33,828 nt of DNA, taken from assembly GCA_040755795.1 (NCBI GenBank), contig JBFLXS010000009.1, positions 1 through 33,828 of the forward strand, given 5' to 3'. Below, piece by piece: positions 11,818 to 30,099 of this stretch. Each line of letters starts with the position of its first letter. Positions within the stretch are counted from its first letter, which is position 1. This DNA is from a bacterium (GTDB lineage Bacteria; UBA9089; CG2-30-40-21; SBAY01). The notes under the pieces were generated by a model that saw only the letters and a program-made list of their open reading frames with translations, had not been told where the DNA came from and searched no databases. Made by a program: the position numbers and the translations under genes.

Positions 11818-12636
11818 ATGAAAAAGTTAAAAATAATTGCCGGTAACTGTATCCTGGAAAATCTTGATACTTCGGTAAAGACGATTGAGGCATTAATAGA
11901 TTTCTCAAAAGAATACGATTTTGAAATTATCTACAAAAGTTCGTTTAAAAAAGATAATCGCTCAAGTTATAATTATTATACAGGTCCTGATTTAGAAGAA
12001 AGTATCAAGATATTTAAATATTTAAAAGAAAAATATGGAGTAAGTTTAATCACCGATTTTCATAATCTTTATGAGATTGACAGCGAAATAGTCGATGTAG
12101 TGGATATTCTTCAGATACCTGCTTATCTTTGTATGCAAACCGAGCTTGTTTTAAAAATCGCCAGTGTGGGCAAACCAGTTAATATCAAAAAAGGACAATT
12201 TCTCCATCCTGAAGATGTAGGTAAAATTGTGAAAAAAATTGAAAGCACTGGCAACAATAAAATTATGATTACTGAGAGAGGAACTTGCTTTGGTTATAGA
12301 GACCTTGTAGTTGACCCGAGGTCTTTTTTTATACTCAAATCTTTTGGTTATCCTGTGTTTTTTGATGCGGGTCATTCAATCCGAAAATATGGTGTGCCAT
12401 CCGCTGACCTTGAGAAAGGTGGAGCAAAAGAATATGTTAATACCCTGGCCTGTGCCGCTATTGCTTGTAAAATCGATGGAATATTCGTTGAGGTCCACCC
12501 TCAACCTGAAATAGCCCAATGCGATGCGGCCACTCAGCTTTCATTTAAAGAGTTTGAAAATTTGGTCAAAGATATTATACCTATCTGGAAGGCGGTTAAA
12601 TCACGAAGTCTCTCGGATAAAAAATTCCCCTCTTGA
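11818..12636 (+). CDS. kdsA: 3-deoxy-8-phosphooctulonate (Kdo-8-P) synthase
   Basis: Condenses phosphoenolpyruvate with arabinose 5-phosphate to Kdo 8-phosphate, for the inner core of lipopolysaccharide. The 272 residues show the family motifs KSSFKKDNRSS, DILQIPAYLCMQTEL, KKGQFLHPEDV, ERGTCFGYRDLVVD, FFDAGHS and VEVHPQPE. Cys11 (IIAGNC) stands where metal-dependent KdsA enzymes have the metal-binding cysteine. The final residues (SLSDKKFPS) lie in a repeat that recurs near 15260, and the TGA is inside the hairpin CCCCTCTTGAGAGGGG, so the gene end has been remodelled. AAAAGGGG lies 4-11 bases upstream of the ATG. Confidence 0.88.
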   Translation: MKKLKIIAGNCILENLDTSVKTIEALIDFSKEYDFEIIYKSSFKKDNRSSYNYYTGPDLEESIKIFKYLKEKYGVSLITDFHNLYEIDSEIVDVVDILQIPAYLCMQTELVLKIASVGKPVNIKKGQFLHPEDVGKIVKKIESTGNNKIMITERGTCFGYRDLVVDPRSFFILKSFGYPVFFDAGHSIRKYGVPSADLEKGGAKEYVNTLACAAIACKIDGIFVEVHPQPEIAQCDAATQLSFKEFENLVKDIIPIWKAVKSRSLSDKKFPS

Positions 12637-12694
12637 GAGGGGTTAGGGGGGTGTTTTTCTCTGCGAACTCTTTTGTGTCTGCGATGAACAGTTA
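12604..12694. repeat. Left direct repeat flanking the ATPase/protease cassette
   Basis: GAAGTCTCTCGGATAAAAAA, then the hairpin CCCCTCTTGAGAGGGG, then GGTGTTTTTCTCTGCG and a terminal GATGAACAGTTAC. The same series, with an extra segment inserted, is at 15258-15546. The last bases are a family A right end. The hairpin overlaps the kdsA stop and could act as terminator. Confidence 0.65.
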
Positions 12695-12739
12695 CTTATG
12701 TCTGAATTGAAGAAGTCCTTCAAAATTTTCTTGCTTTTT

Positions 12740-12769
12740 TTGACAAAGGATGTTATAATTAAATAGTAT
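12740..12769 (+). promoter_or_regulatory. Possible promoter of the ATPase/protease pair
   Basis: TTGACA at 12740-12745, then TAGTAT at 12764-12769 with 18-base spacing. A better -10 match, TATAAT at 12754-12759, is too close to the TTGACA to pair with it. The ribosome-binding site AAGGAAG and the ATG at 12787 follow. Confidence 0.4.
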
Positions 12770-12786
12770 ATAAAAGGAAGGTTAGT

Positions 12787-14007
12787 ATGATAACAAAAAT
12801 AAATGTTGAGGGATTTAAACTTCATGCAAAAACTTCTATAAACGCTAAACCAATAACTATATTCATAGGTCCAAATAATAGTGGTAAATCAAGCTTGATA
12901 CAGGCTGTTCAATCACTTTGTCAAACAACAAATTCTAATATTTTTATCCCACACATACGGAGATTACCCGAAAAATCAGCTTACTTATATCCATGTAATA
13001 CCTATAAAATTGACCCTGGCAGGTTTGAAGATGTCCTTAAAAAAGGGAGTGAATATATTTGTATAGCATTAGCAGGCAAGACTTCTGGGAGGGTACTTAG
13101 TGAAAAAAATAAGATAATGGAGGTAGAATTTGAAGTTAAAATAAAAGATAATTATCTCTTATCTCATAAGGGACGAGTAAAAGATTACTACTGGTGGGAC
13201 TATAATATAGGAAATTCACAGGCACAAAATGTTTGCAAGGGAGTTCATCCAACAGGAAACTTTCAATTGGTGGATAAACTTAAGTGTGATAATGATAATT
13301 TCCCTATGAATTTATTAGAATCGTGTTACTTCATATATCCAATAAGAGGTTTTGAAGAGGCAGGTTATTTACTTCCTGAAGAACCTTCCCAAAGGTATTC
13401 TACACTTGAGAATATAACATTAAATGATAGAGTTGTAACTTTAATCGCCGCATTTGCCTATAATGCAGATTTACGAAAAGAAGTAGCTCAAAAACTCAGT
13501 CAGATTATGGGTTATGGAATAGACATTGACATTCAGTGGATAGGAAGTAATCGGGTTAAGATTTTGTTAAAAGAACCAGTAAATACACCTATAGTAAATG
13601 AAGGGTCAGGATTTCAACAAATGATATTTATCGTTTTACCACTTATTCTTATACCTGATAATTCCACAGTCTTTATTCAAGAGCCTGAGGTTCATCTACA
13701 TCCAAAGGCCCAGGTAGAGATAGGAAGATTACTTATTAAATTTGTTGAAAATAAAAATAGCCAATTATTTATTGAAACGCATAGTGAACATATCTTACAC
13801 GCATTTCTATATGCCATTGCTACACAACAAATATCAAAAGATGACTTAGCGATATATTATTTTGAGAATAAGGAATGGAGTGCAAAAGTAACTGCGCTTG
13901 AGATTGATGAATTAGGCAGGGTAAAGGATGGTTTTCCAGGATTCTTTGAGCAAAGTTTAGAAGAATTAACTGAGTTTTTAGATGCTATTAAGAGAAGGGA
14001 AAAATAA
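12787..14007 (+). CDS. AAA-type ATPase, ABC/OLD-like
   Basis: A 406-residue P-loop ATPase of the RecF/OLD/AAA_21 kind. Walker A is G28-PNNSGK-S35. The C-terminal half has a signature-like SGFQQM, Walker B FIQ-E299-P-E301 followed by HLHP, and the H-loop IETHSEH (H332). It resembles the DUF3696-like ATPases that often occur in phage-defence or toxin pairs. It has no TOPRIM nuclease part. Three bases separate it from the next gene, so the two are an operon. The pair interrupts the kds gene series and is flanked by direct repeats, suggesting acquisition as a unit. Confidence 0.75.
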   Translation: MITKINVEGFKLHAKTSINAKPITIFIGPNNSGKSSLIQAVQSLCQTTNSNIFIPHIRRLPEKSAYLYPCNTYKIDPGRFEDVLKKGSEYICIALAGKTSGRVLSEKNKIMEVEFEVKIKDNYLLSHKGRVKDYYWWDYNIGNSQAQNVCKGVHPTGNFQLVDKLKCDNDNFPMNLLESCYFIYPIRGFEEAGYLLPEEPSQRYSTLENITLNDRVVTLIAAFAYNADLRKEVAQKLSQIMGYGIDIDIQWIGSNRVKILLKEPVNTPIVNEGSGFQQMIFIVLPLILIPDNSTVFIQEPEVHLHPKAQVEIGRLLIKFVENKNSQLFIETHSEHILHAFLYAIATQQISKDDLAIYYFENKEWSAKVTALEIDELGRVKDGFPGFFEQSLEELTEFLDAIKRREK

Positions 14008-14010
14008 CCG

Positions 14011-14919
14011 ATGAAGAAAAGATTCCCTATTCCTCCAAAAATAATTAAGTATTATAAACTAATACAGACTATACCATATTTATACCAGTTAGGAATAAAT
14101 CCTGAGTATAGTTTTAGGAGAGAGGATTTAGAATTTATTGAGAAACTAAAAAAAGTGAAGGGGATAACTATTTTTAAGCCTATACGGTTTAAAAGTGGGT
14201 TTGTAGGGCAAAATTTAACATTGGAAGAGTATTCATCACTTGGGATAGATAAAAAAATGTATCTTGAATCCACCCTTCTGGAAAATAATATGGACTGGCT
14301 CAACCAGAAATTTCAGGAATTGGATTCTGCATGGATAACAGTAGTCAATGGAGAAATAGTAACATACTCTCCTGACCTCAGTGAATATCCACAGGAAACT
14401 GATATATTAAAAATTTGCAAGGAGAAAGGAAAATTCCCCTTTATCTTTGTAAATAATGAACTTCTGGCAATTGAAGAAAGTTCATCCCGATGGTCAAAAA
14501 CTAACCAACAAGATGATTACTATCCAACAATAAATATACAACTGAATTCATCAAACTTAACCTCGAAATTTATTGCAGACTTTGATACCGGAACTACTGA
14601 AATATTTGTGGATATGGACAGATTGATAACAAAAGGATTAATTAAAAAACCCTCTTCGTTCGAAGTCATCAAGAGATCTACCCATTTAGGCAAAGAATAC
14701 TGGTATTATATAAAACCTCTGCGTATCGGTATAGTGCCAGAAAAAGGTAAAATTAAGAAAGATGAAAATTTTCCTGTGTTCTGTATTTGTAATTGGAATG
14801 AGGGGCCTTTTGTCTCTATAAATCCAAACCGTAGTGCTTTAGTAGGAAGGAAAATATTTTTGAAGATAGGGGCATCGGTTATACTCCACTTTACTAATCG
14901 AAAAACAGAGATCTATTAA
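14011..14919 (+). CDS. Retropepsin-like (DTG) protein paired with the ATPase
   Basis: A 302-residue protein. Residues ~100-150 (SAWITVVNGEIVTYSPDL, then GKFPFIFVNNE) resemble the small DUF5678-type domain. Residues ~175-302 look like a retropepsin-type aspartic protease fold: a strand, then D192-T193-G194 (FIADFDTGTTEIFVD), and near the end SALVGRKIFLKIGASVILHF, which fits the 'LLGR…L' strand of such folds. The assignment comes from reading motifs only. No signal peptide or membrane segment is present, so it acts in the cytoplasm. It probably works with the ATPase, which could present or sense a substrate. Confidence 0.5.
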   Translation: MKKRFPIPPKIIKYYKLIQTIPYLYQLGINPEYSFRREDLEFIEKLKKVKGITIFKPIRFKSGFVGQNLTLEEYSSLGIDKKMYLESTLLENNMDWLNQKFQELDSAWITVVNGEIVTYSPDLSEYPQETDILKICKEKGKFPFIFVNNELLAIEESSSRWSKTNQQDDYYPTINIQLNSSNLTSKFIADFDTGTTEIFVDMDRLITKGLIKKPSSFEVIKRSTHLGKEYWYYIKPLRIGIVPEKGKIKKDENFPVFCICNWNEGPFVSINPNRSALVGRKIFLKIGASVILHFTNRKTEIY

Positions 14920-14920
14920 A

Positions 14921-15164
14921 GTAACCGTTCAGGGATATAGCCACAGAGTCACAGAGAACACAGAGGGAATATATAACTACGAATGAACACGAATAATAAA
15001 AAGATTTGTAGTGCGAGGCTTTAACCTCGCTTCTGGCAAGCAGGAAAGCGAACCTAAAGGTTCGCACTACATTTATCGAATGTCAGAGAGGTTAATTCGT
15101 GTCCTTATGTGGCTAATTTCTCTAATTCTCTGTGAACTCTGTGCCTCTGTGGCTGAACGGTTAC
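14921..15164. mobile_element. Fold-back element, family A, with embedded REP pair
   Basis: Starts GTAACCGTTCAGGGATATAG and ends CTGTGGCTGAACGGTTAC. The arms are ACAGAGTCACAGAGAACACAG against CTCTGTGAACTCTGTGCCTC. The centre holds the REP hairpin pair at 15007-15071. It is the inverted counterpart of the copy at 19657-19896 and matches the copy starting at 33702. The flanks (CTATTAAA, AGATTATT) are not identical. It begins one base after the stop of the DTG protein gene. Confidence 0.75.
15007..15071. repeat. REP pair (REPIN-like) with GTAG heads
   Basis: TGTAGTGCGAGGCTTTAACC begins one hairpin, and the inverted partner ends GGTTCGCACTACA. Each half has the GTAG head followed by a hairpin (GCGAGG…CCTCGC; GCGAACC…GGTTCGC), the layout recognised by REP-associated tyrosine transposases. 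Other copies are at 19748-19812 and 33788 to the window end. Confidence 0.7.
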
Positions 15165-15236
15165 AGATTATTGATGCAGACATTGAAATAGTTATGACCT
15201 GCTTGCCGAATGTTCAGCAGGCAAGCCAGATTTGTG

Positions 15237-15546
15237 GTAACTGTTCAGGCTATAATACATCCGAAGAAGTCTCTCTGATAAAAAATTCCCCACCTGTGCG
15301 ATTAGACTAATTCATCGCAGAGACGCAAAGGAAAAATAAATGTAAAATGTAAAATAGGAAATGAGAAATGGGAAATTTTAGTACTTCGCCAGACTCATTA
15401 TCTTTCAGTTATACATTTTCATTGGACATTTCTCATTGGACATTATCCATTTTACATTTAACCGCACAGGTGGAAAACTCCCCTCTTAAGAGGGGTTAGG
15501 GGTGTGTTTTTCTCTGCATCTCTGTGTCTGTGTGGTGAACAGTTAC
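15237..15546. repeat. Family A-like repeat; right direct repeat of the ATPase/protease cassette
   Basis: Begins GTAACTGTTCAGG and ends GGTGAACAGTTAC. It contains GAAGTCTCTCTGATAAAAAA and the perfect palindrome CCCCTCTTAAGAGGGG, both matching the kdsA end region at 12604-12694, plus an inserted fold-back (15284 to about 15478, ACCTGTGCG…CGCACAGGT). No target duplication is visible. From 15547 to 15624 only GAATCCCCGAACTCCG-type repeats and a GATAACTGATTAC unit precede the next ribosome-binding site. Confidence 0.6.
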
Positions 15547-15624
15547 GAATCCCCGAACTCCGAACCCCGAGAATTTACCTGATGACCGATAACTGATTAC
15601 TAAATATAAATGGAGGAAGATAAA

Positions 15625-16653
15625 ATGAAACTATATATTGATTCAGCAAATATTAATGCCATTGAGAAATATTCTAAAATGAAGATTTTCTCAGGCGTAA
15701 CGACAACCCCTACTTTTTTCAGAAGAGAGGGAATAACGGATATACCAGGTGAGATAAAAAAAATCTCTAAGATAATTCCTGGTGAGATTCATATTGAAGC
15801 GATGGGAAACACGGCTGAGGAAATTATAGAAAGTGCTATGGCTAATATGGAAATGGGGCCCAATGTGATTTCAAAAATTCCTCTGCATCATGAGAGTATA
15901 AAAGCAGTTGAATACCTATCAGAAAAAGGAATTAAAACAAATGTTCACTTACTCTTTTCATTAAATCAGGCAATCCTGGCGGCATTAGCTGGAGCAACAT
16001 ATGTTTGTCCTCTTGTCGGAAGAATATATGATATTGGTTACGATGGTTTAAAGGTGATTGAGGAGATAATTATTGGTTTTAAGAAATACCCGGAAATAAA
16101 ATCAAAGGTAATGGTTTCAAGTGTCCGAACACCAGAACATGTCCGTCAGGCGTTTTTAATTGGGGCTGATTGCATTACTATACCGCCTTTTGCCATAGAG
16201 CAAATGTTTCAACATCCCCTGACTAAATCAGGTATTGACAAATTCGAAGAAGATATTATGTTAACCCGGTATGTCAGAGATTTACTCCATTTAGGAGAAG
16301 ATTTACCCGTTGTGACTGAAGAAACTTATATGAAAGATGCAATCGTTGAAATGACGAAGAAAAAACTCGGTATTGTTCTGGTTATAGACAAGGAAGGGAA
16401 ATTGATAGGATGTATTACTGATGGTGACCTACGCCGAGCAATTCAAAAATTTCCAAATCTCTATGATTATCGTGCAGGAGAATGTATGACCGGAGAACCA
16501 AAAACAATATCAAAAGATGCTTTTGTTCATGAGGCTTTATCTATGATGGAAAAATCGAGTATTACTCAATTAATTACAGTTACAGAAAATCAGGAACCAT
16601 TTGGAATAATTCACATCCATGACATCCTTAAATACAAAGGATTAAATACTTAA
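15625..16653 (+). CDS. Transaldolase-family enzyme fused to a CBS-domain pair
   Basis: A 342-residue fusion. Residues 1-218 are a TalC/fructose-6-phosphate-aldolase-type barrel: D6 (LYID), GVTTTP, the Schiff-base lysine K84 (ISKIP), NVHLLFSLNQA, PLVGRI and a final MFQHPLTKSGIDKFEED. Residues ~230-342 are two CBS motifs, the first with ITDGDLRR as in arabinose-5-phosphate isomerase KdsD. The barrel has T28 where the family has Asn (TTNP), and NVH where TalB has NLT, so substrate preference may differ. It sits 11 bases before kdsC and downstream of kdsA, where KdsD would be expected. An ATG at 15610 is in frame, but GGAGG at 15612-15616 makes 15625 the likely start. Confidence 0.8.
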   Translation: MKLYIDSANINAIEKYSKMKIFSGVTTTPTFFRREGITDIPGEIKKISKIIPGEIHIEAMGNTAEEIIESAMANMEMGPNVISKIPLHHESIKAVEYLSEKGIKTNVHLLFSLNQAILAALAGATYVCPLVGRIYDIGYDGLKVIEEIIIGFKKYPEIKSKVMVSSVRTPEHVRQAFLIGADCITIPPFAIEQMFQHPLTKSGIDKFEEDIMLTRYVRDLLHLGEDLPVVTEETYMKDAIVEMTKKKLGIVLVIDKEGKLIGCITDGDLRRAIQKFPNLYDYRAGECMTGEPKTISKDAFVHEALSMMEKSSITQLITVTENQEPFGIIHIHDILKYKGLNT

Positions 16654-16664
16654 AGGATAATTAG

Positions 16665-17243
16665 ATGGAAGAAAAAACCAAAGATATAAAATTAATACTT
16701 ATGGATGTCGATGGTGTTTTAACCGATGGACGAATAATACTTGGGGAAAAGGAGGAGTTAAAATTTTTTGACATCAAAGATGGAATGGGCATAACTTTAG
16801 CTAAAAAAGCAGGATTAAAAGTAGGCGTAATTACAGGCAGAACAAGCAAAGCAGTTGAAAAAAGAGGGAAAGAGCTAAAGATGGATTATGTCATCCAGGA
16901 AAAAATCAATAAGTTAGAAGCAGTTGAAGAAATCCTGAAAAAAGAAAAATTAGACTATAAAAATATTGCTTACATTGGAGATGATATAATCGACATTTCC
17001 TTATTCAGAAAAGTTGGGTTCTCAGCAACCGTTAATGATGCACCCGAATATATTAAATCAGAAGTGAGTTATGTTGCCAATAAAAATGGTGGAAGAGGAG
17101 CAGTTAGAGAAATCATTGAGTATATCTTAAAAAATCAAGGAGTTTTACAATTAACTATTGATAAGATTATAGAGGCGTGGAGTAATGATGACTGTAACTA
17201 TTCACCATTCACAATTCACAATTTCTTCCCTAAATTTCCTTAA
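16665..17243 (+). CDS. kdsC: Kdo-8-phosphate phosphatase, HAD family
   Basis: Removes phosphate from Kdo 8-phosphate. HAD motifs are D14-V-D16-GVLTDG, T57-G-R59, K83 (EKINKLEAV) and GDD (D106-D107); small C0-type HAD without a cap, forming tetramers in relatives. The genuine protein ends at ...AWSNDD, about 172 residues. The last 20 codons (CNYSPFTIHNFF…) are read from the family A element inserted inside the stop codon; excision restores GAT GAC TAA. The gene follows the transaldolase-CBS gene by 11 bases and shares its operon. Confidence 0.88.
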   Translation: MEEKTKDIKLILMDVDGVLTDGRIILGEKEELKFFDIKDGMGITLAKKAGLKVGVITGRTSKAVEKRGKELKMDYVIQEKINKLEAVEEILKKEKLDYKNIAYIGDDIIDISLFRKVGFSATVNDAPEYIKSEVSYVANKNGGRGAVREIIEYILKNQGVLQLTIDKIIEAWSNDDCNYSPFTIHNFFPKFP

Positions 17244-20476: not shown

Positions 20477-21469
20477 ATGTATATACACACTGCATCAGTT
20501 ATGCTCAATCTAAAGGCATTAGAGCCAATCATCCTCCCTTCTTACAAAGGTTCTACCTTAAGGGGAGGATTTGGGACTGCCTTTAAGCGAGTAGTTTGTG
20601 CCATAAAGGATAAGGAATGTCCAGACTGCCTGCTGAAAGACAAATGCGTTTACTCCTACATCTTTGAAACCCCACCTCCACAAGATACCAAAATTATGCG
20701 TAAATATACCTCTGCACCTCACCCATTTGTTATTGAACCGCCTCCAGAAAAACGGATGGGTTATAAACCTGGCGATGAGATAAACTTTTCCCTTATCCTC
20801 ATCGGCAAGGCAATAGACTACCTTCCCTATTTTGTCTATACCTTTCAAGAGCTGGGGAAGATAGGTATAGGCAAAGACAGAGGCAAGTTTGAGTTGCAAG
20901 AGGTTAGCTGTAACGGAGAGACAATCTATGATTCTCGGAATAAAACGCTTAAATCCATTACTCCTTCGACCTTATCGGTAGTCTTTGACGATACTCATAC
21001 TGACCCATTTATCCTTGAAACCTTAACCTTGAATTTTCTCACCCCTACCCGTATCCTTTATGACAACCATCTTACGATTGAGCTTGATTTCGAGATTCTG
21101 CTCAGGCAGCTTTTGCGCCGTATCTCTCTCCTTTATTACTTTCATTGTAATGGTGACCCATCTGCATGGGATTTCAGAAGAATAATTTACAAATCCAAAC
21201 AGATAGAGACAATAAAACGGATGTTAGACTGGTATGACTGGGAGCGATACTCTGCCCGGCAGGAAACAAGGATGAAGCTGGGTGGTTTTGTAGGTGAGAT
21301 AACCTTTAAAGGTGTTATTGAACCATTCATTCCTTTAATCAAAGCAGGTGAGGTATTGCATATTGGCAAAGGCACCAGCTTTGGACTGGGGAAATATAAG
21401 ATAGAAGGCGTAGAGCACGGAGTAAGAAAAAAGGGTAACTATTCAGCCTGTAGGAAAGTAGGAGAGTAG
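20477..21469 (+). CDS. cas6: CRISPR pre-crRNA endoribonuclease Cas6
   Basis: Cuts the CRISPR precursor transcript within repeats to give crRNAs. A 330-residue RAMP protein: N-terminal LRGGFGTAFKR, a cysteine-rich ECPDCLLKDKC segment, central FQELGKIGIGKDRGKFELQEV, and the C-terminal glycine-rich loop HIGKGTSFGLGKYKI of the Cas6 C-terminal domain. The final residues (GNYSACRKVGE) come from a family A element; excision gives the original end GVRKKV. AAAGGGGAAAAAGG precedes the ATG. The gene lies 3.9 kb upstream of cas10, separated by inserted modules. Confidence 0.85.
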   Translation: MYIHTASVMLNLKALEPIILPSYKGSTLRGGFGTAFKRVVCAIKDKECPDCLLKDKCVYSYIFETPPPQDTKIMRKYTSAPHPFVIEPPPEKRMGYKPGDEINFSLILIGKAIDYLPYFVYTFQELGKIGIGKDRGKFELQEVSCNGETIYDSRNKTLKSITPSTLSVVFDDTHTDPFILETLTLNFLTPTRILYDNHLTIELDFEILLRQLLRRISLLYYFHCNGDPSAWDFRRIIYKSKQIETIKRMLDWYDWERYSARQETRMKLGGFVGEITFKGVIEPFIPLIKAGEVLHIGKGTSFGLGKYKIEGVEHGVRKKGNYSACRKVGE

Positions 21470-21829
21470 GAAAGTAGGAAAGGGAAGACATTGTCCCCAG
21501 AAGAGGAATACCGTGCACATCCTTTATCCCTTTCCTACTTACCTACTACCTACTTGCCTACTATTTCCATTGCTCTGTCTTCCGGAGGTTAATGTTCGTT
21601 CCCCCAAATAACTGCCCCATTACGAACTAAGGTATTATCTAATTCTATCTAAAGATCTTAATTATCTGCCAGATTTTCAATCCATTTGGGATATATCTGA
21701 AGAAGTGAGTAGGTTTAATCAAATCAATTAAGAGTAAAATAGTATGAAGTATTTTACTCTCTTCCTACTTCCTACTTCCTACTTTCCTACTTTCCTACTT
21801 CCTACTTGCTTGGTATGCTGAATAGTTAC
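21435..21829. mobile_element. Fold-back element, family A, at the 3' end of cas6
   Basis: Termini GTAACTATTCAGCC and GCTGAATAGTTAC; perfect 8-bp duplication AAAAAAGG at 21427-21434 and 21830-21837. The arms are repeated GGAAAGTAGGAAAGTAGG and complementary CCTACTTTCCTACTTTCC. It inserted 2 bases before the original cas6 stop and fills the stretch up to the next promoter. Confidence 0.88.
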
Positions 21830-21880
21830 AAAAAAGGTATAATTTGTTTCAACTCCTTGCTTTTTGCTTTAAACTTTTTA

Positions 21881-21910
21881 TTGACATAATTGTGGTATAA
21901 GTGTTAAAAT
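21881..21910 (+). promoter_or_regulatory. Promoter of the RelBE-like pair
   Basis: TTGACA at 21881-21886 and TAAAAT at 21905-21910, spacing 18; a TATAAT at 21911-21916 is too far from it. AATGGAGGTG and the ATG at 21936 follow. This promoter is independent of cas6. Confidence 0.5.
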
Positions 21911-21935
21911 TATAATTTAATGGAGGTGAAAGATT

Positions 21936-22175
21936 ATGTTAACCCAAAATCCAAGAATTAATGTTGTCATGGAAAAACGACTTTATCAGACCATCGAACA
22001 ACTGGCTAAAAGGGATGGGGTTTCTTTGTCTTTAAAGACGCGTGACCTGGTCAAAGAAGCTTTAGAAATAGAAGAAGACATTGCTCTTTCAATCTTTGCT
22101 GGAGAGCGAGAACGAACCTTTGAAAAAGCAAATGCCCTTAAGCATAGTGAGGTATGGAGTGAATCAGCGTTTTGA
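21936..22175 (+). CDS. RelB/ribbon-helix-helix-type antitoxin
   Basis: A 79-residue protein. The N-terminal RINVVMEKRLYQTIEQLAKRDG has the strand-helix pattern of ribbon-helix-helix antitoxins, which bind their own promoter as dimers. The C-terminal charged helix (ERERTFEKANALKHSE) would wrap the toxin. It has a strong ribosome-binding site (GGAGGTG) and overlaps the toxin gene by 17 bases. Confidence 0.72.
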   Translation: MLTQNPRINVVMEKRLYQTIEQLAKRDGVSLSLKTRDLVKEALEIEEDIALSIFAGERERTFEKANALKHSEVWSESAF

Positions 22176-22440
22176 GATTAAATACCATCAGGATGTAAAA
22201 ACGGTTGATATACCACTACTTGATGCGAGGTTAAAGATGCGCATTAAAGAGGTTATCGAGACCCGTTTAACCACAGCCCCACACCACTATGGCAAACCCT
22301 TAAGGAAAACTCTGAAAGGATATTGGAAAATAAGGGTTGGTGATTATAGAGTGGTCTATAAAATGATGGAAAATGAAGTCTGGATATTAGGAATCATTCA
22401 CCGCAAAGATGTCTACAAAAAGATAGAGAGAAGGGGCTGA
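22159..22440 (+). CDS. RelE/ParE-family toxin
   Basis: A 93-residue protein with the RelE-superfamily core: KYHQDVKTVDIPLL, PHHYGKPLRKTLKGYWKIRVGDYRVVYK, and WILGIIHRKDVYKKIERR. In the RelE branch such toxins cut mRNA in the ribosome; in the ParE branch they poison gyrase. WKIRVGDYRVVY and the conserved C-terminal arginines favour RelE. I choose GTG at 22159, which overlaps the antitoxin end; the longer frame from 22081 lies wholly inside the antitoxin gene. The pair lies between cas6 and a cas6 relic. Confidence 0.8.
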   Translation: MNQRFEIKYHQDVKTVDIPLLDARLKMRIKEVIETRLTTAPHHYGKPLRKTLKGYWKIRVGDYRVVYKMMENEVWILGIIHRKDVYKKIERRG

Positions 22441-22451
22441 GTTATCAAGCC

Positions 22452-22526
22452 ATGCAAGGGCTACACATTGGCAAAGGCACCAGCTTTGGACTGGGGAAAT
22501 ATAAAGTAGTATCAATAACCTACTGA
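22452..22526 (+). pseudogene. Relic of a second cas6 3' end
   Basis: Reads MQGLHIGKGTSFGLGKYKVV and a few more residues to a stop. HIGKGTSFGLGKYK is identical to the glycine-rich loop of the intact Cas6, and the DNA is nearly identical to 21358-21405 (ATTGGCAAAGGCACCAGC, then TTTGGACTGGGGAAATATAA). It is the tail of a duplicated or recombined cas6. A 3' repeat region (22560-22693) with hairpins (GTGTCTGGTAGTCTATGT against ACATAGACACCCAGACAC) and a family A right end, CCTGAACGGTTAC, follows. Confidence 0.6.
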
Positions 22527-22923
22527 CAAAGCTATCCTGAAATTTCCACCTTGAATTTTTTCTTGATCGTATAGGAAAGTATAACATACCACGAATTTCA
22601 CGAATTGGACGAATAAAAATGTATCTAAGTGTCTGGTAGTCTATGTAACCCAAACACATAGACACCCAGACACCAGACCACCTGAACGGTTACATTATTC
22701 TAATAATTATCCTGAAATCGGCAAGTATCTGAGTAAAAAGGGGAGAGGGGGGTGAAAAAGAAGGCTATTTTGACAAATTTGGGAGAGAATTAAGGAGAAG
22801 ATGAAGGGAATTAGATAACGGATAGAAAAGAGATAGGATTAAGATGGGAGTGAGTCATAATTTGGGCACAATACGAGTGTGTCTAAAGTTCTTTGAAAAG
22901 TGAATATGGTCAAATTGCTGTAG

Positions 22924-24270
22924 TTAACATCGAACCGGGGTAAAGCCATTAGCTACAAAATAGAAGAAGGCATCAAGATTTGTTTTGATTATCTGAATGA
23001 TAGACTCAAGAAGTTTATTGGCGGCGAGTTTAATTCGATGGAATCTACCCTTGCCGAGGATATTGCCAGGGATATTGATGATTTGTCTGCGGATGGTTTT
23101 AATCTCACAGTTTTTCTTATCCTCAGGCAACAAAGCCTGTCTATACCAATTCATCAGGTTGTAGGCGATAACTTTAATGAACATAAATGCCTGATTGCGA
23201 ATTTTGAGATGTTGAGATGCTTCTTCTACAGCAAAACCATCTTTGAGTTCATCTATTTTGTTCTCGACATTAGCCCTATCATCATAGAAGTTCATAATCT
23301 CAGCTGGGTCACCTTCCATATTGGTGACGACAGCTTCATAACGATAGAAATCCTTATAGTCGAGGAGGAGTTGGGATGTATCTTTATCTATTTTCACTCT
23401 ACGGATGACAAATCTTCTGGGTTTTTTCCAGGTTTTAAGCAGGAATTCTTTACTGGTAATACTGGTGTATTCGTCAATTTCTTTCCAGTCTTTTTCAGGG
23501 ATGGAGATGATTAATTTTCTAAGATTTTCTCTTAGAGGAGCTTTACAGACATATTCTAAATATAACTCTTCAAACTTGATGAGGTTATCTTCATCAAAGA
23601 AGCCTTTATCTAATCTAAGTTTTGTGGCTACATAATTGGGAGGTAACAGGTCGAGGCAAGTTTGAAAGAAAGGAAGGAAATCACCATTACTATGAACCTT
23701 GCCTGAGTAAAGATTAAAATGGAGCAATTCATTAGATGAACCAATAAAACAGACCTTAACTTTAAAGGAAGGTCGACCATGATAACGAGGATTATAACCA
23801 ACTTCGCCACCTTCTTGATGACCATGAAGGGTGACAACTGAATCATCAAAATCCAGGGTGACATGGGTATGACCTGACCACTTTGATTTAAGGTGGTTTA
23901 ACTTTTTATTGATATTGATAAGTTCCTGGATATGCGTTTGTTGAAAGGCAGAGAGAAGATTACGAAAGACCTTTTCTGATGGGAAAGATGAGATTTGTTT
24001 AAGGTCAAGATAACCAGGGTCAAATCGTAAAGTTTCTGTATGTTCAAAACGGGATAATCCCAGACAGCAACAATCAATCAGATGTTCTAATGTTTGAGGT
24101 GCAGAATAAAGGCTGTTAATGGGTTTAGAAAGGGTGAAGTTGTTTTTAATGATACCTGTTAGATCAATAGCTTGTTTAAAGGTTTCTATAGTATGGAAGT
24201 TACCAAACTGGGTGACGGTATCATTACCGAATTCAACCTGGAGATTAACAGGTCTGATTTTGCGAACCAA
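22924..24270 (-). CDS. IS1380-family transposase
   Basis: DDE transposase. D140/D142 (LDFDDS), D221 (RLDKGFF) and E336 (DDRANVENKIDELKDGF) are the probable catalytic triad; the last stretch is typical of IS1380. From the TTG at 24270 it has 448 residues. The same frame stays open 31 codons upstream, to an ATT at 24363, and that stretch (PQIDTRPRKERRPEIIAL) looks like genuine protein. AAGGAGA lies just before it, but there is no ATG, GTG or TTG there, only ATT or ACG. The true start may therefore be a near-cognate codon at 24363-24357. No frameshift is seen and the gene may be active. Confidence 0.85.
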   Translation of the reverse strand: MVRKIRPVNLQVEFGNDTVTQFGNFHTIETFKQAIDLTGIIKNNFTLSKPINSLYSAPQTLEHLIDCCCLGLSRFEHTETLRFDPGYLDLKQISSFPSEKVFRNLLSAFQQTHIQELININKKLNHLKSKWSGHTHVTLDFDDSVVTLHGHQEGGEVGYNPRYHGRPSFKVKVCFIGSSNELLHFNLYSGKVHSNGDFLPFFQTCLDLLPPNYVATKLRLDKGFFDEDNLIKFEELYLEYVCKAPLRENLRKLIISIPEKDWKEIDEYTSITSKEFLLKTWKKPRRFVIRRVKIDKDTSQLLLDYKDFYRYEAVVTNMEGDPAEIMNFYDDRANVENKIDELKDGFAVEEASQHLKIRNQAFMFIKVIAYNLMNWYRQALLPEDKKNCEIKTIRRQIINIPGNILGKGRFHRIKLAANKLLESIIQIIKTNLDAFFYFVANGFTPVRC

Positions 24271-24361
24271 TTTTCGTTTTCTTTTCTCCAGAGCGATAAT
24301 TTCTGGTCGTCGTTCTTTACGAGGACGGGTATCTATTTGAGGGGTTAAAGAAGTAATCGTA

Positions 24362-24439
24362 ATTGGTCTCCTTTTTATGTTAACTTTAGTAATATGAATT
24401 ACTTACATAAAGTATAGCATAGGAGGAGACCAATGTCAA
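24362..24439 (-). promoter_or_regulatory. Transposase promoter and ribosome-site-hiding inverted repeat
   Basis: On the minus strand, TTGACA (24439-24434) and TATACT (24416-24411) are 17 bases apart. ATTGGTCTCCT (24362-24372) and AGGAGACCAAT (24424-24434) are perfect 11-bp inverted repeats. One arm covers the transposase ribosome-binding site; the other lies upstream of the transcript start. Only read-through RNA from outside would contain both arms and fold the ribosome site away. Confidence 0.6.
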
Positions 24440-24543
24440 GTATTTTTGTTAAAAAATTTGCAGATTTTTTAATGAGTTAAGTATTTATATATCAAGTGGT
24501 TAAAGGTATAGAGAAAAGGTCACTTGCCGATTTAAGGATTATA

Positions 24544-24639
24544 GCACCTATTAATCGAAATTTGACATAGAATTCTCTAATCCTCTAATTCGCTAATCTC
24601 TAATTCACTATACTATGTAAAGTTTTGACTAATAACTGC
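24544..24639. mobile_element. Family C inverted-repeat element
   Basis: Begins GCACCTATTAATCGAAATTT and ends AGTTTTGACTAATAACTGC; the ends are imperfect inverted repeats, flanked by TATA on both sides. A longer copy is at 6016-6240. The IS1380-family element inserted at its left edge. Confidence 0.55.
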
Positions 24640-24685
24640 TATAGTATTCATTCGTAAAATTCGTTTAATTCGTGGTAACTTTTTC

Positions 24686-24714
24686 TTGACATTCTTAATG
24701 GTAAATAGTATATT
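24686..24714 (+). promoter_or_regulatory. Promoter upstream of the broken nucleotidyltransferase gene
   Basis: TTGACA at 24686-24691 and TATATT at 24709-24714 with 17-base spacing, about 30 bases before the ATG at 24745. AGGTAGAG serves as a ribosome-binding site. Confidence 0.5.
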
Positions 24715-24744
24715 AAAGAGTATCTAAAAGCCTGAGGTAGAGTT

Positions 24745-25057
24745 ATGAATAACGGGTTAAAAGAGAGTGAGATAGAGAAAATTATCGAAGCCTTAAAGAG
24801 ATTTCCTCAGATTGAACAAGCGATTATATTTGGTTCACGCGCCAAAGGAAGCCATAAAAAAGGCTCTGATATTGATTTGGCGATAAAAGGCAAGGACATT
24901 ACCGAAGAAACTCGCAATCATCTATAGTTTTATGCTTAACGAAGAAACCCCCTTACCATATTTTTTTGATGTGGTTCATTACGAAAGCATAAATAACCCT
25001 GATTTGATTGAACATATCAACCGTATGGGAAAAATTATTTATAAAGGGGCAGAGTAA
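24745..25057 (+). pseudogene. Frameshifted minimal nucleotidyltransferase
   Basis: The first frame reads AIIFGSRAKGS and GSDIDLAIKG (GSx10DxD) and stops at 24927. A +1 frame then continues SFMLNEETPLPYFFDVVHYE to IIYKGAE, the usual C-terminal half of this family. A single-base shift near 24920-24926 splits the gene. The second part's TAA is supplied by the GTAAC end of a family A fragment at 25054. No HEPN partner is adjacent. Confidence 0.7.
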
Positions 25058-25331
25058 CTATTCAGCCACTGATTAACACGGATTAGCAGGGATAAATACA
25101 GAGGTCAGAAGATAGAAGGCAGAGGACAGATGAGAAAGGGGGAAACGGAGAAAGGGAGAAATCGGTCTAATCTCCGGTAAAATCTTGCGGATATTTTCAG
25201 GGGAAGTTTCACGCCAAGCACGCAAAGAACGCAAAAGGAAATAAGGCAAAAAATTACCTTTGCGTCCTTTGCGTGAAAAAATTAAAAATCTGTAAAATCT
25301 GCGAAATCTGCGGATATTTTGAGGTAAAAAG
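25054..25331. repeat. Family A left end and fold-back repeats before cas10
   Basis: GTAACTATTCAGCCACTGAT at 25054 matches the element at 1896, but no right end is found before cas10. The rest is short repeats (GGTCAGAAGATAGAAGGCAG) and a fold-back, CGCAAAGAACGCAAAAGG with TTTGCGTCCTTTGCGTG (about 25215-25280). No gene is seen. The cas operon promoter must lie here or upstream but is not obvious. Confidence 0.5.
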
Positions 25332-27923
25332 ATGAAAGATAATAATCAAGAATATCAAACCGTAATCTTAGCCGCACTTTTGCATGATATTGGGAAGTTT
25401 ATTCAACGGCAGAGTAATATTATCGCAATTAGTCAGAGTCATACTAAATTTTCTAAAGATTTCTTTTCTGAAGAAGAAGATTTTCATGCACTTTGGCTAA
25501 GGGATGATATTGATTTAGAATTGATAGAAAAGATAGTTTGGAATCACCATAATGCTATAATTGAAGAAACAAGAAGGAAAGGAGATTTTAAAAATAAACG
25601 AGAGGAAGCCCTCTGTCAATTGGTTAGTGACGCAGATACTTTCTCTGCGGGCGAAAGACATAGTGAAACTTTAAAAGATAAACAAGAAAGTGAAGAAAAA
25701 AGAGTGTATTTTACTAAGAGACCATTAGACCCTATCTTTAGCCAGGTAGAACTGTTCTGCAACCCTTCATCAAGCGTATCTCCCTATAAAATTGGAAAAT
25801 TAGAGCCAAAAGGTGCTTTTCCTGATGGACCAAAACAGATACAAGAGGGTGAGATATTAGAGCACTACAAGAATCACTTTATCCCTGAGTTAAAGGAGAT
25901 AACTGCTGATAACTTTGATGGATTCTATAATTCATTACTCTCTCTTTTAGAAAAGTATACCTGGTGTCTTCCCAGTGATACTACAAAAGATATAGCCGAT
26001 ATATCTCTTTACGACCATCTTAAAACTACCAGTGCTATTGCTGCCTGCCTTTACCGATTTCATGAGCAAGATATTGAAAGCTACCTTGACTCTTCCAAAG
26101 CTCAATACAAGTTTAGATTGATTGGTGGAGACTTATCAGGAATTCAAGATTATATCTTTAAGATTACTGAGAAGGGCAGAGGAGGGGTAGCGAAAAGACT
26201 CAGAAGCCGCTCATTCTATTTATCCGTCTTGTTAGAGGTTACTATTCAAAAAATCCTTCATCATTTAAAACTTCCTTACAGTTGTAATCTAATTTCAGCG
26301 GGGGGGCGTTTTGTCCTCCTTGCTCCAGAAAATATCAGTGATAAGATGATGAAAGACCTCCAGAAAGAAATTTCAACCTGGTTATTTGAAAAGTTCTTTG
26401 GCCAAATAACGATTAATCTAAATTGGGAAGTAATAATTACAGGTTATAGTCTCAAAATAGGAAAATTCCATCGCTATCTGAATAGAGTTTATGAGAATTT
26501 AGAGCTAAAGAAACAACGAAAGAATTCAGAGATTTTGTTTGATGGGAAATGGCTTGAGAGAAAGTTTGTAAGAGAAAGCCAATATGAACGTTACAGCCAG
26601 AAGGAAGGAGGAGCAAAAGATTGCCAGATTTGCCATTGCTTTCCTGCAAGCAAAAAAGATAATGATGGACCAGAGATATGTTCTCAGTGTGCCCTGGACA
26701 AGAAGATTGGAGAGATGCTCCCTAAAACAGAGTATATAGCTTTGGGGAAGGCAAGGCCTGATGAATTTCAAAGAAATGAAGCCGACCTAATCTTCTTTAA
26801 TAACGGAAAAGAAGGGGAGGAAGTCTATTTCTTGAAATTAATCAAACAACACTGTACTCAATTGCCACAAGTAAATGACCATTATTATCTTCTTTACCGT
26901 CTTTATGATGTTCTGGAAAAGAAGATAGAACCTACTGACCTTGGAATTATGAATAAATTCTTTGCTAACTATGTGCCTCTTTACAAAGACTTGGATGAGG
27001 AAGAAAAAGAACTTATCGATGAGGATCAGGAAACAAAGCCTGGCAGCATTCTTACCTTTGGAACCTTAGCCAATCTATCTCAACGGAAGAATCGGGATGG
27101 AGATTGGCAAGGAGAAAGACGAATAGGTCTTTTGAAGGCAGATGTAGATCGTTTAGGAGTAATCTTTAATCTTGGTTTAGGAAAAGATGTTACAGTCTCA
27201 AGATATTTAACGATGAGCAGGATGATTGACCTCTTTTTTGCCGGCTGGGTTGAAAGAACCATCTCTACAGAATTTAGGGAACTCTACACTGTATTTTCTG
27301 GTGGGGACGACCTCTTTCTGGTAGGTCCCTGGGAGGAAATAATTAAGTTTTCTCAAAGATTATACAAAGAATTCCGCTCTTTTACCTGCCAGAATGACAA
27401 TATTACCCTTTCTGCAGGCATTGCTGTTCTTAAACCTAAACTGCCAATTGCCAGAGGCGCCATATTGGTAAATGAATTGCTTAAGGACGCTAAGGCAAGC
27501 AACGGAAGGTTTTTAATTGGTGAGGTATCTGAAGATGAAGGAAGAGACCAACTCACACTTTTTGGAACTACTCTGAAGTGGAATGAAATGGAAGAGACCC
27601 TTCCTTTTAAGGACTTGCTCATTGATGAATTGAAGAGAAAAGATTCCCCATTTAAGGTAGCATTTCTTCACCGTCTATTAAAATATCACCGGATGTATCT
27701 GAATGTTCAGAAGGGGGTGGTTGAAGATTTACTTTATCGCTCTCATCTGGCTTATGATATAGGAAGGAATATCAAGAGAAAAGAAAAAGATAGCAAGAAA
27801 GTTCAAGAGGAATTGATGAAATGGTTAGAACCCCTTTATTCAAATGATGATGGGGTTAAGAACAAATTGATGAAGAATATGAAAGTCCCTGTATTCTGGG
27901 CAATTTATAAAAATAGGAGGTAA
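25332..27923 (+). CDS. cas10: Cas10/Csm1, large subunit of the type III-A complex
   Basis: Signature subunit of the Csm surveillance complex, 863 residues. The N-terminal HD nuclease domain has LLH18-D19-IGKF and the later histidines WNHHN, and would cut single-stranded DNA. GDLSGIQDYIFK (about 264) opens the first palm domain. Cysteines C431, C434, C450 and C453 form a zinc site. The second palm has the intact cyclase motif G657-G658-D659-D660, so cyclic oligoadenylate synthesis is expected on target binding. FDGFYNSLLSLLEKYTWCLPSDT is typical of Csm1. GAGG precedes the ATG. It leads a five-gene operon with gaps or overlaps of a few bases. Confidence 0.93.
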   Translation: MKDNNQEYQTVILAALLHDIGKFIQRQSNIIAISQSHTKFSKDFFSEEEDFHALWLRDDIDLELIEKIVWNHHNAIIEETRRKGDFKNKREEALCQLVSDADTFSAGERHSETLKDKQESEEKRVYFTKRPLDPIFSQVELFCNPSSSVSPYKIGKLEPKGAFPDGPKQIQEGEILEHYKNHFIPELKEITADNFDGFYNSLLSLLEKYTWCLPSDTTKDIADISLYDHLKTTSAIAACLYRFHEQDIESYLDSSKAQYKFRLIGGDLSGIQDYIFKITEKGRGGVAKRLRSRSFYLSVLLEVTIQKILHHLKLPYSCNLISAGGRFVLLAPENISDKMMKDLQKEISTWLFEKFFGQITINLNWEVIITGYSLKIGKFHRYLNRVYENLELKKQRKNSEILFDGKWLERKFVRESQYERYSQKEGGAKDCQICHCFPASKKDNDGPEICSQCALDKKIGEMLPKTEYIALGKARPDEFQRNEADLIFFNNGKEGEEVYFLKLIKQHCTQLPQVNDHYYLLYRLYDVLEKKIEPTDLGIMNKFFANYVPLYKDLDEEEKELIDEDQETKPGSILTFGTLANLSQRKNRDGDWQGERRIGLLKADVDRLGVIFNLGLGKDVTVSRYLTMSRMIDLFFAGWVERTISTEFRELYTVFSGGDDLFLVGPWEEIIKFSQRLYKEFRSFTCQNDNITLSAGIAVLKPKLPIARGAILVNELLKDAKASNGRFLIGEVSEDEGRDQLTLFGTTLKWNEMEETLPFKDLLIDELKRKDSPFKVAFLHRLLKYHRMYLNVQKGVVEDLLYRSHLAYDIGRNIKRKEKDSKKVQEELMKWLEPLYSNDDGVKNKLMKNMKVPVFWAIYKNRR

Positions 27924-27928
27924 TTAGA

Positions 27929-28336
27929 ATGGAGACAAATTATGATAGCTTTTTTTATGAAGAAAAGAGCGGTCAAGCGGTCATTCGTGAGGAACTATTG
28001 ACCAATAGGGCTCAAGATTGGGCTAAGAGCTTTTTAAAAGCTCGTCCACCACTTCACTCTGCCCAACTGAGGAGGTTTTATCATGATGTTAAGTCATTAG
28101 AGGCAAAGGTTACTACAGAGGATGAGTTTACCAAATATAGACCTTTGGTCAAGATGCTAAAATCAAAGGTAGCCTATGCCTGCCCGAAAACTTATAGTGG
28201 ACGAAAAGTACCCTGGGAATTCAGAGAGTTTATTGAAAAATGTGTTGACGAAATCAATTCACTCCAGGATTTTAAATCTTTTACCCTGGTATTTGAGGCA
28301 GTAGTAGGATATTTCTTTGGTGAAGGAGGTAGGTAA
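27929..28336 (+). CDS. csm2: Csm2, small subunit
   Basis: A 135-residue helical protein forming the inner filament of the Csm complex, beside the target RNA. AQDWAKSFLKARPPLHSAQLRRFYHDV and the C-terminal FKSFTLVFEAVVGYFFGEGG are typical of Csm2. AGGAGG lies just upstream, at the end of cas10. One base separates it from csm3. Confidence 0.85.
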   Translation: METNYDSFFYEEKSGQAVIREELLTNRAQDWAKSFLKARPPLHSAQLRRFYHDVKSLEAKVTTEDEFTKYRPLVKMLKSKVAYACPKTYSGRKVPWEFREFIEKCVDEINSLQDFKSFTLVFEAVVGYFFGEGGR

Positions 28337-28337
28337 G

Positions 28338-29093
28338 ATGTCAGAAGAAATTAAATTGCAACTTAAAGGATGCAAGGTGATAAATGGAACTATCACCTGC
28401 AAAACCGGGCTTCACATTGGGGGAACAGCCGAGACTATTGAGATTGGAGGTATGGACAACCCTATTATTAAACACCCAATTACTCAATTGCCTTACATCC
28501 CTGGTTCTTCTATCAAAGGTAAGATGCGAAGTCTATTAGAATGGAAGTTAGATAACTTCCAACGCAATGGAGATGTGCATCAATATGATGACCGTAAATG
28601 TTTAAGAGAAAAATGTCCTATCTGCCGTATCTTTGGCACATCCTCTGATAAGGCACAAATTGGCCCCAGTCGGCTCATTGTTCGTGATGCCTTTCTTACA
28701 GAAAATTCACAGAAAAAACTTGAGGAGTTGAAAAAGCAGAAAGGATTGATGTATGCTGAAGAAAAGACAGAGAATACCATAAATCGCCTCAGTGCCAGAG
28801 CCAATCCCAGAACACAGGAAAGGGTGCCGGCTGATATTGTCTTTGAGTTTGAGATGATTTATCGGCTGTTTGAACTCAATAATGATAGAGGCAAAGTTGA
28901 TGAAGAGCTCTTTAGGTATGTAGAAGAAGGGATAAGGTTAATACAAACAGATGCCCTTGGAGGCTCTGGAAGTCGGGGCTATGGTAAGGTTGAATTTGAA
29001 TATGAGGTTAAAGATTGCCCCCTTGAAACTAAGTCTGAAGAGGTAAAAGCAAATGACAAACTACAAAACTTACAAAGTGACCCTAAAGATTAA
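28338..29093 (+). CDS. csm3: Csm3, backbone RAMP subunit with target-RNA cleavage residue
   Basis: Forms the repeated backbone and cuts the bound target RNA. 251 residues from the ATG at 28338, which has GAAGGAGG upstream; a longer frame from 28317 lacks that support. Motifs: GLHIGG (24-29), GG-M-D40-NP, where the aspartate matches the catalytic residue of Csm3 (D33 in characterised homologues), PYIPGSSIKGKMRSLLE, and near the C-terminus the glycine loop DALGGSGSRGYGKVEFE. CLREKCPICRIFG may bind zinc. Its 3' end overlaps csm4 by 41 bases. Confidence 0.92.
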   Translation: MSEEIKLQLKGCKVINGTITCKTGLHIGGTAETIEIGGMDNPIIKHPITQLPYIPGSSIKGKMRSLLEWKLDNFQRNGDVHQYDDRKCLREKCPICRIFGTSSDKAQIGPSRLIVRDAFLTENSQKKLEELKKQKGLMYAEEKTENTINRLSARANPRTQERVPADIVFEFEMIYRLFELNNDRGKVDEELFRYVEEGIRLIQTDALGGSGSRGYGKVEFEYEVKDCPLETKSEEVKANDKLQNLQSDPKD

Positions 29094-30099
29094 ATCTTCA
29101 GTTATTACCCCTTTTCAGGCTGATACCATCTTTGGCACTTTATGCTGGGGAATTAGATTCCTTGAGAAAGAAGAAGAACTGAAGAAATTCATTGATGCCT
29201 CTTTAGGAGAATATCCGCCCCTTATCATTTCTGATGGTTTCCCTGAAGGCTATCTGATAAAACCTGTTTTAGAACCATTAAAATCTAAAGAGTCTGAAGA
29301 ATTAGCCAGAGATTGTTACGGTAAGGAAAAAAGAGGACTGATAAAAGGGATAATGAAATTAAAAGAGCTAAATAGAATAGACTTTATCTCCAAAGATTAT
29401 CTCTTAAACCACATTGACCCTTTATCTTGCATCCAGATGGGAAGGGATTTTTTAACCGGTGGATTCAAAGAGCCTGAAATTGAAAGCCAGACAAATCTGC
29501 ATAATACCTTTAACCGACTTATAGCAAGGGTAAGAGAAGGTGGACTATTTTCTGAAACAGAAACCTATTATTCTTTAGCATCCAGAATTAATTTTTATAT
29601 CAAATTGAATGAAACCGTGTTTCCATTAAGTCGGCTTGAAAATCTACTAAAAGGATATTTAGAAATCAGTGGTTACGGAGCAGATAAATCAGTTGGCAAA
29701 GGACAGATAGAATTTATGGCGATTGAAGATTCAGATTTATCTTGTGCCAAACAACCTAATGCTTTCATTTCTTTATCATCCTTTGTTCCTGATTCTGATG
29801 ACCCAGCAAATGGCTTTTACATCCCTTTAATCAAATATGGAAAGTTAGGTGAGCATTATGCCAGCTCTAAGATTAATAAACTTGATCGGAATAATCGAAT
29901 AATTGGATTGCATCCATTTAAGAAACCACTCTATATGTTTAAAGCAGGTTCTGTATTTTTTCTGGATGGAAAGCCATTGAAAGAGTATTATGGACAGATA
30001 ATTAAAAATGTCCATTGGGATACTGAAATTATCCATTATGGCTTGGCTTTTCCATTAGGAGTGAAAATTGAAGAAACCATGGAAGGTGAAGTATGCTAA
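29053..30099 (+). CDS. csm4: Csm4, crRNA 5'-end-binding RAMP subunit
   Basis: A 348-residue RAMP protein that caps the complex at the crRNA 5' tag and contacts Cas10. TPFQADTIFGTLCWGIRFL is the typical N-terminal Csm4 segment; ISGYGADKSVGKGQIEF is the glycine-rich loop, and YGLAFPLGVKIE closes the protein. It starts inside csm3 and overlaps csm5 by 7 bases (ATGCTAA), so translation is coupled. Confidence 0.88.
   Translation: MTNYKTYKVTLKIKSSVITPFQADTIFGTLCWGIRFLEKEEELKKFIDASLGEYPPLIISDGFPEGYLIKPVLEPLKSKESEELARDCYGKEKRGLIKGIMKLKELNRIDFISKDYLLNHIDPLSCIQMGRDFLTGGFKEPEIESQTNLHNTFNRLIARVREGGLFSETETYYSLASRINFYIKLNETVFPLSRLENLLKGYLEISGYGADKSVGKGQIEFMAIEDSDLSCAKQPNAFISLSSFVPDSDDPANGFYIPLIKYGKLGEHYASSKINKLDRNNRIIGLHPFKKPLYMFKAGSVFFLDGKPLKEYYGQIIKNVHWDTEIIHYGLAFPLGVKIEETMEGEVC

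Follow-up and report, generated by a model that had tools for sequence, protein, structure and literature searches.

The stretch of DNA analysed here (the window, 33,828 nucleotides at its full length) carries a kdsA gene, an open reading frame in which an aldolase-type barrel is fused to a pair of CBS domains, and a gene for a kdsC-type phosphatase, with the following features.

11818..12636, forward strand: kdsA, a member of the clade that accompanies the fusion (KDNRSS, CMQ, R189/Y191), from NCBIfam, alignment and tree.
12604..15592, no strand assigned: segment that the congener G001 lacks between kdsA and its fusion gene, thus an insertion into the module and not part of it, from comparison with G001.
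15625..16653, forward strand: fusion of a TAL_FSA barrel and a CBS pair, 342 aa, candidate aldose 5-phosphate synthase, from Pfam, NCBIfam, AlphaFold and Foldseek.
15625..16254, forward strand: barrel domain, residues 1-210, from the alignment of 85 fusions with 26 ordinary FSA/TalC proteins.
15874..15876, forward strand: codon of the Schiff-base lysine Lys84, which aligns with Lys85 of E. coli FsaA and is present in 85/85 fusions.
16270..16632, forward strand: KdsD-type CBS pair (residues 216-336, with ITDGDLRR), from Pfam, NCBIfam and PDB match.
16665..17243, forward strand: kdsC-type phosphatase, from TIGR01670 (164 bits vs. a cut-off of 107).

The kdsC gene begins 11 bases past the stop codon of the fusion, and kdsA lies about 3 kb from the fusion because an ATPase gene pair has been inserted between them, the same distance being about 0.4 kb in the congener G001. 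The inserted segment contains an AAA_15 ATPase gene (12787-14007; E 1e-51 with the PADLOC model NsnB) and, at 14011-14919, an unknown gene, the two being perhaps a defence pair; dispersed repeats, cacagagaacacagag-like and atgtaaaatgtaaaa-like, are found between genes at 14920-15600. Further along the window, at 20477-31136, Cas6 (Pfam) occurs together with ORFs resembling a type III CRISPR effector set, including an 863-aa GGDD-bearing protein at 25332-27923 with RAMP-like proteins following it. Of the Kdo module, kdsA, kdsC and kdsB are present, the first two in the window and kdsB elsewhere in the genome (G000:C160:5678-6370).

The ORF of the fusion is open over 15610-16653, the common start of its homologs being at 15625. 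Pfam matched TAL_FSA to residues 3-208 (E 5.7e-42) and found two CBS copies after the barrel (E 2.1e-20), and in NCBIfam residues 216-336 resembled the C-terminus of KdsD (PRK10892, E 1.3e-23). The SIS catalytic domain is absent from the protein, as the match to TIGR00393 covers profile positions 155-268 only and the barrel is of the TAL_FSA family. The AlphaFold model consists of a barrel and a CBS pair (pLDDT 89), the barrel being similar to TalC-type transaldolases in Foldseek (TMt about 0.9), and the fusion scores below the curated TIGR00875 cut-off (212.8 vs. 245.95 bits). The solved structures nearest to the CBS pair of the window all come from arabinose 5-phosphate isomerases (4o9k, 3k2v and 3fna), the top PDB match (E 4e-22) being 4o9k, which was reportedly solved with CMP-Kdo. 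While the barrels of the fusions form a single clade (support 100/100), the window pair groups with KdsD in the CBS tree, apart from the other fusions, a placement for which the one-clade alternative is not rejected (AU p 0.108); the pair may thus have been gained once, gained independently or exchanged. In pairwise identity, the window CBS pair stands mostly at 44-50% to the CBS pairs of KdsD but at 28-39% to those of other fusions, a hint of an independent fusion or of domain exchange. An earlier note on this DNA had described a TalC/FSA-like barrel with the Schiff-base Lys84, joined to a KdsD-type CBS pair and lying between kdsA and kdsC, 11 bases from the latter. The coordinates agree, with the gap of about 3 kb to kdsA as a refinement; the TAL_FSA match and the alignment of Lys84 bear out the barrel, as the PRK10892 match and the best PDB match, 4o9k, do the CBS pair.

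Kdo is near-universal in the LPS of Gram-negative bacteria, and its precursor arabinose 5-phosphate is known to be made by a SIS isomerase (KdsD, GutQ or KpsF). When the window genome (completeness 100%) was searched by family models, neither it nor the congener G001 gave any match to TIGR00393 over the cut-off, the matches below it being to the CBS part of the fusion, to other stand-alone CBS proteins and, weakly, to GlmS. The PF01380 matches in the window genome are restricted to GlmS and one GmhA (L003, TIGR00441 over cut-off), neither of which is an arabinose 5-phosphate isomerase. A SIS_2 gene on contig C135 was likewise discarded as a KdsD candidate, being divergent and unlike KdsD; in that locus (L035, 335-2187), a second, unfused FSA-like protein comes after this isomerase and a GmhB-like HAD, and the group looks like a separate sugar-phosphate cluster. 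The sister genus has a full KdsD (TIGR00393 over cut-off) in a different neighbourhood and no fusion, and within the phylum the fusion is confined to the genus of the window among 19 genomes.

Beyond this phylum, a scan of GTDB species genomes yielded at least 80 full-length fusions, about 37-42% identical to that of the window, and the locus counts given here come from the 80 listed. Their hosts are mostly Bacteroidota, in addition to Scalindua (Planctomycetota), deltaproteobacterial MAGs (Myxococcota in the taxonomy used) and a gemmatimonadote MAG (Gemmatimonadota); a separate phylum has the fusion in G048, G111 and G112. In 62/80 listed loci kdsA adjoins the fusion on the same strand, upstream in 60, the gap having a median of 64 bases and staying within 100 bases in 40; in the other 18/80 no kdsA turned up next to the fusion, a point against the reading favoured below. 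Downstream of the fusion, relatives often have a KdsC-like HAD gene and kdsB, and profile comparison relates the HAD that follows the fusion to KdsC (probability 98.6). In Bacteroidota (L080 7119-7826, L047 7071-7781 and relatives), this HAD is about 235 aa long with a DWDGVFN motif; at E 0.01, Pfam has no model that matches proteins of this kind, and their likeness to KdsC is distant; possibly they represent an unnamed phosphatase family.

KdsD is absent from 47/50 public fusion genomes and, once the genus of the window and the G048 group are included, from 52/55; put differently, it is present in 3/55 fusion genomes vs. 211/297 of the Bacteroidota sampled (p about 6e-21 in a Fisher test that ignores kinship). 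Among genomes of the phylum to which G048 belongs, three (G048, G111 and G112) carry only the fusion and a fourth only KdsD. Incomplete MAGs could explain some of these absences but hardly 52/55. The fusion genomes that keep KdsD, namely Chryseolinea serpens, Sphingobacteriales 44-61 and one deltaproteobacterial MAG, each have a standard kdsA in addition to the kdsA that adjoins the fusion. The replacement of KdsD by the fusion is thus well supported genetically, and the fusion probably supplies the substrate of KdsA in place of KdsD. Such a replacement had been suggested as possible in the earlier note, where an ordinary kdsD elsewhere in the genome, together with no association of the fusion with kds genes in relatives, was named beforehand as a refutation: the family models found no KdsD in this genome and the linkage to kdsA extends across phyla. 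A quite different explanation, that the fusion is an ordinary CBS-controlled transaldolase or fructose 6-phosphate aldolase which lies near kdsA by chance, with arabinose 5-phosphate coming from an unknown enzyme, can draw on the TalC-like fold and on about 38-45% identity to many ordinary members of the family. Yet it has to face the linkage to kdsA across phyla, the mutual exclusion of fusion and KdsD, CBS domains that are nearest to those of KdsD, and the grouping of the fusions in a single clade whose unusual active site does not vary, and it appears improbable.

This active site was compared in 85 fusions aligned against 26 ordinary FSA/TalC proteins. Asp6, Glu58, Lys84, Asn106, Arg133, Ser166 and Arg168 are kept in 85/85 fusions, whereas five positions are changed in all of them: T28 replaces N, H108 replaces T, C128 replaces A/S, L130 replaces Y/F and S165 replaces A (in family numbering, Asn28, Thr109, Ala/Ser129, Tyr/Phe131 and Ala165 replaced by Thr, His, Cys, Leu and Ser); Thr28 for Asn and NVH for NLT, both picked out earlier from the window alone, are therefore invariant features of the fusions. 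Asn28, Thr109 and Tyr131 (or Phe), which in FSA/TalC belong to the donor pocket and hold the catalytic water, are thereby missing from 85/85 fusions. In E. coli FsaA, the phosphate of glyceraldehyde 3-phosphate is bound by Arg134 and Lys168, while the donor pocket and proton relay involve Asp6, Asn28, Gln59, Thr109, Ala129 and Tyr131 (PMC13259622). By alignment, R133 and R168 of the fusion correspond to Arg134/Lys168, and the changed positions coincide with the donor pocket. Because the phosphate-binding positions are kept and those of the donor pocket replaced, the change probably concerns the donor or the proton relay and leaves the phosphorylated acceptor as it was. Since both Tyr131 of FSA and the Thr of transaldolase (in NxT) are replaced, ordinary aldol turnover is not to be assumed. 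The loss of these catalytic Tyr/Phe and Thr positions would also be expected of a barrel that is no longer an aldolase, the fusion then being a regulator or scaffold of KdsA that senses the end product via its CBS pair; this seems very improbable, as 85/85 fusions retain Lys84, Asp6, Glu58, Asn106, Ser166 and the arginines of the phosphate site, and the loss of KdsD would be left unexplained.

In the partner KdsA, with residues numbered as in Aquifex via the alignment, Ala47 is replaced by Asp, Phe103 by Tyr and Arg106 by Met, and the L7 loop has Arg189 and Tyr191, in 69/69 proteins from fusion loci, whereas standard KdsA have Ala47 and Arg106 in 22/22 and Phe103 in 20/22; Asn48, Arg49, Lys41, Lys46, Lys124 and Arg154 are kept in the fusion-associated kind. 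The KdsA of the window is accordingly not of the standard kind, with D in the KANRS motif and M in place of Arg106. In the KdsA tree, a branch with support 100/99 splits the fusion-associated and standard kinds across phyla, every KdsA adjoining a fusion falls in one clade, and the window KdsA groups with the fusion kind, that of its own family being standard; kdsA and the fusion therefore act as one evolutionary unit. A docking study of Neisseria KdsA put Asn57, Arg58, Pro110, Phe112 and Leu113 on the side of arabinose 5-phosphate (PMC6650799). In the alignment, the positions changed in the clade are among these residues or next to them and, the partner being altered at A47, F103 and R106 on this side, its aldose may differ. 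Structures of an Aquifex variant with Gly at 106 are in the PDB (1t8x and relatives). In this R106G mutant, closure of the L7 loop is reportedly impaired and the Km for arabinose 5-phosphate raised, so that the changes in the clade may signal either rewiring of the loop or a different aldose. The earlier note had itself offered a route to a related octulosonate as an alternative, and the altered site of the partner KdsA leaves room for it.

The altered aldose site leads to another explanation, in which the fusion makes a different aldose phosphate (a stereoisomer or one of another chain length) that this KdsA clade condenses with PEP to a non-Kdo 3-deoxy-ulosonate of LPS, often 8-aminated. The changes around the aldose site in 69/69 KdsA of the clade, as against A47 and R106 kept in 22/22 standard ones, the rebuilt donor pocket of the aldolase and the three genomes with both systems and both KdsA types, as two products would predict, speak for it. 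On the other hand, Asn48, Arg49, Lys41, Lys46, Lys124 and Arg154 of KdsA are kept, the joint change of R106, A47 and the L7 loop could reflect another mode of loop closure on an unchanged substrate and, KdsD being lost, hosts with the fusion only would have no Kdo at all. KdnA and KdnB, which were defined on Kdo, also share the operon in many hosts. All in all, this alternative is rather doubtful, and it is likewise only tentatively that the fusion and its private KdsA could be considered as a separate pathway to a non-Kdo 3-deoxy-ulosonate, built from a different aldose phosphate, which would replace Kdo in LPS both in many Bacteroidota and in other, scattered phyla.

Regarding this operon, KdnA- and KdnB-type genes precede kdsA and the fusion in 34 of the listed fusion loci, the proteins of C. 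serpens matching KdnA (5k8b, E 3e-137) and KdnB (5k8c, E 3e-129) of Shewanella. KdnB is found in 41/50 public fusion genomes vs. 2/54 KdsD-bearing Bacteroidota (Fisher p about 1e-17). In Bacteroidota, the gene order KdnA-KdnB-kdsA-fusion-HAD-kdsB is encountered among loci L046-L125, and these operons suggest that 8-amino-Kdo is common in this phylum. The fusion also occurs without KdnB in the genus of the window, in the G048 group and in Scalindua, and KdnB was not found in the window genome, so that 8-amination is a frequent partner of the fusion and not a defining one. That the fusion is confined to 8-amino-Kdo synthesis is ruled out by 9/50 public fusion genomes, the genus of the window and the G048 group, all without KdnB.

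The reading we favour, with a fair though far from complete degree of confidence, is that the fusion makes arabinose 5-phosphate by aldol chemistry, replacing KdsD, for its own KdsA clade. It would be a class I (Schiff-base) aldolase acting as the source of an aldose 5-phosphate, most likely D-arabinose 5-phosphate, for the adjoining KdsA. Lys84 would carry the enamine of glycolaldehyde, to which glyceraldehyde 3-phosphate, held by Arg133 and Arg168, would be joined to give arabinose 5-phosphate; the kept acceptor site and the new donor site fit such a donor and product, and on these comparisons arabinose 5-phosphate is a plausible product rather than a related aldose phosphate. We know of no steady supply of free glycolaldehyde in these organisms, which counts against this aldolase reading. 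The glycolaldehyde unit could enter free, or a retro-aldol step at this site could cut it from ribose 5-phosphate. With re-addition after the cleavage, the enzyme would then work as a ribose/arabinose 5-phosphate 2-epimerase and would not depend on free glycolaldehyde. E. coli FsaA does form arabinose 5-phosphate from glycolaldehyde and glyceraldehyde 3-phosphate, in vitro and in engineered cells (PMC6298115, PMC9947464), and TalB F178Y makes both arabinose and ribose 5-phosphate (PMC9947464); one enamine can therefore yield both epimers, which makes the route by retro-aldol cleavage and re-addition possible. Isomerisation via a Schiff base at C2 of ribulose 5-phosphate was set aside on chemical grounds, as no free C2 hydroxyl would result. 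The KdsD-type CBS pair probably senses CMP-Kdo or an analogue and would shut off the first committed step. Domain structure, KdsD loss, kdsA linkage, the private KdsA clade, the kept acceptor-phosphate residues and the rebuilt donor pocket can be read from the sequences themselves; the substrate, product and feedback ligand we infer.

In Bacteroidota and other phyla, a non-homologous aldolase with CBS domains of the KdsD kind and its own KdsA clade thus appears to take over the KdsD step, which suggests a second natural way into an essential surface-sugar pathway in scattered bacteria of several phyla. If true, this would be a natural arabinose 5-phosphate aldolase, such enzymes having been used, to our knowledge, in synthetic pathways only so far; it would account for bacteria that have kdsA but not KdsD and would link the change of enzyme at this step with 8-amino-Kdo operons, and inhibitors aimed at KdsD would miss the organisms bearing the fusion. 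No description of a transaldolase-CBS protein in Kdo synthesis was found in the open-access literature.

Among known systems, KdsD/GutQ/KpsF (TIGR00393) share with the fusion the C-terminal CBS pair (4o9k, 3k2v, 3fna) and the place in the pathway before KdsA, but their catalytic domain is a SIS isomerase instead of a TIM-barrel Schiff-base aldolase. The TalC/FSA family (TIGR00875, PF00923) has the same fold, Schiff-base Lys, Asp6, Glu/Gln59 and acceptor-phosphate Arg residues, from which the fusions depart by N28T, T109H, A/S129C, Y/F131L and A165S in all of them and by the added CBS pair. As for KdsA (TIGR01362), the fusion-associated proteins retain the metal-type Cys, the NRS of KANRS and the PEP-side residues, but form a separate clade with KDNRSS, M106 and R189/Y191, that of the window scoring 289 bits, below the TIGR01362 cut-off of 314 and above that of PRK05198. 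The 8-amino-Kdo pathway of Shewanella (KdnA 5k8b, KdnB 5k8c) has orthologs in the fusion operon of many Bacteroidota, whereas the genus of the window, the G048 group and Scalindua have the fusion without KdnB. Finally, the synthetic routes based on E. coli FsaA (PMC9947464, PMC6298115) use the same aldol addition of glycolaldehyde to glyceraldehyde 3-phosphate to reach arabinose 5-phosphate, but they are engineered, whereas the enzyme proposed here for Kdo synthesis would be natural, kdsA-linked and CBS-fused.
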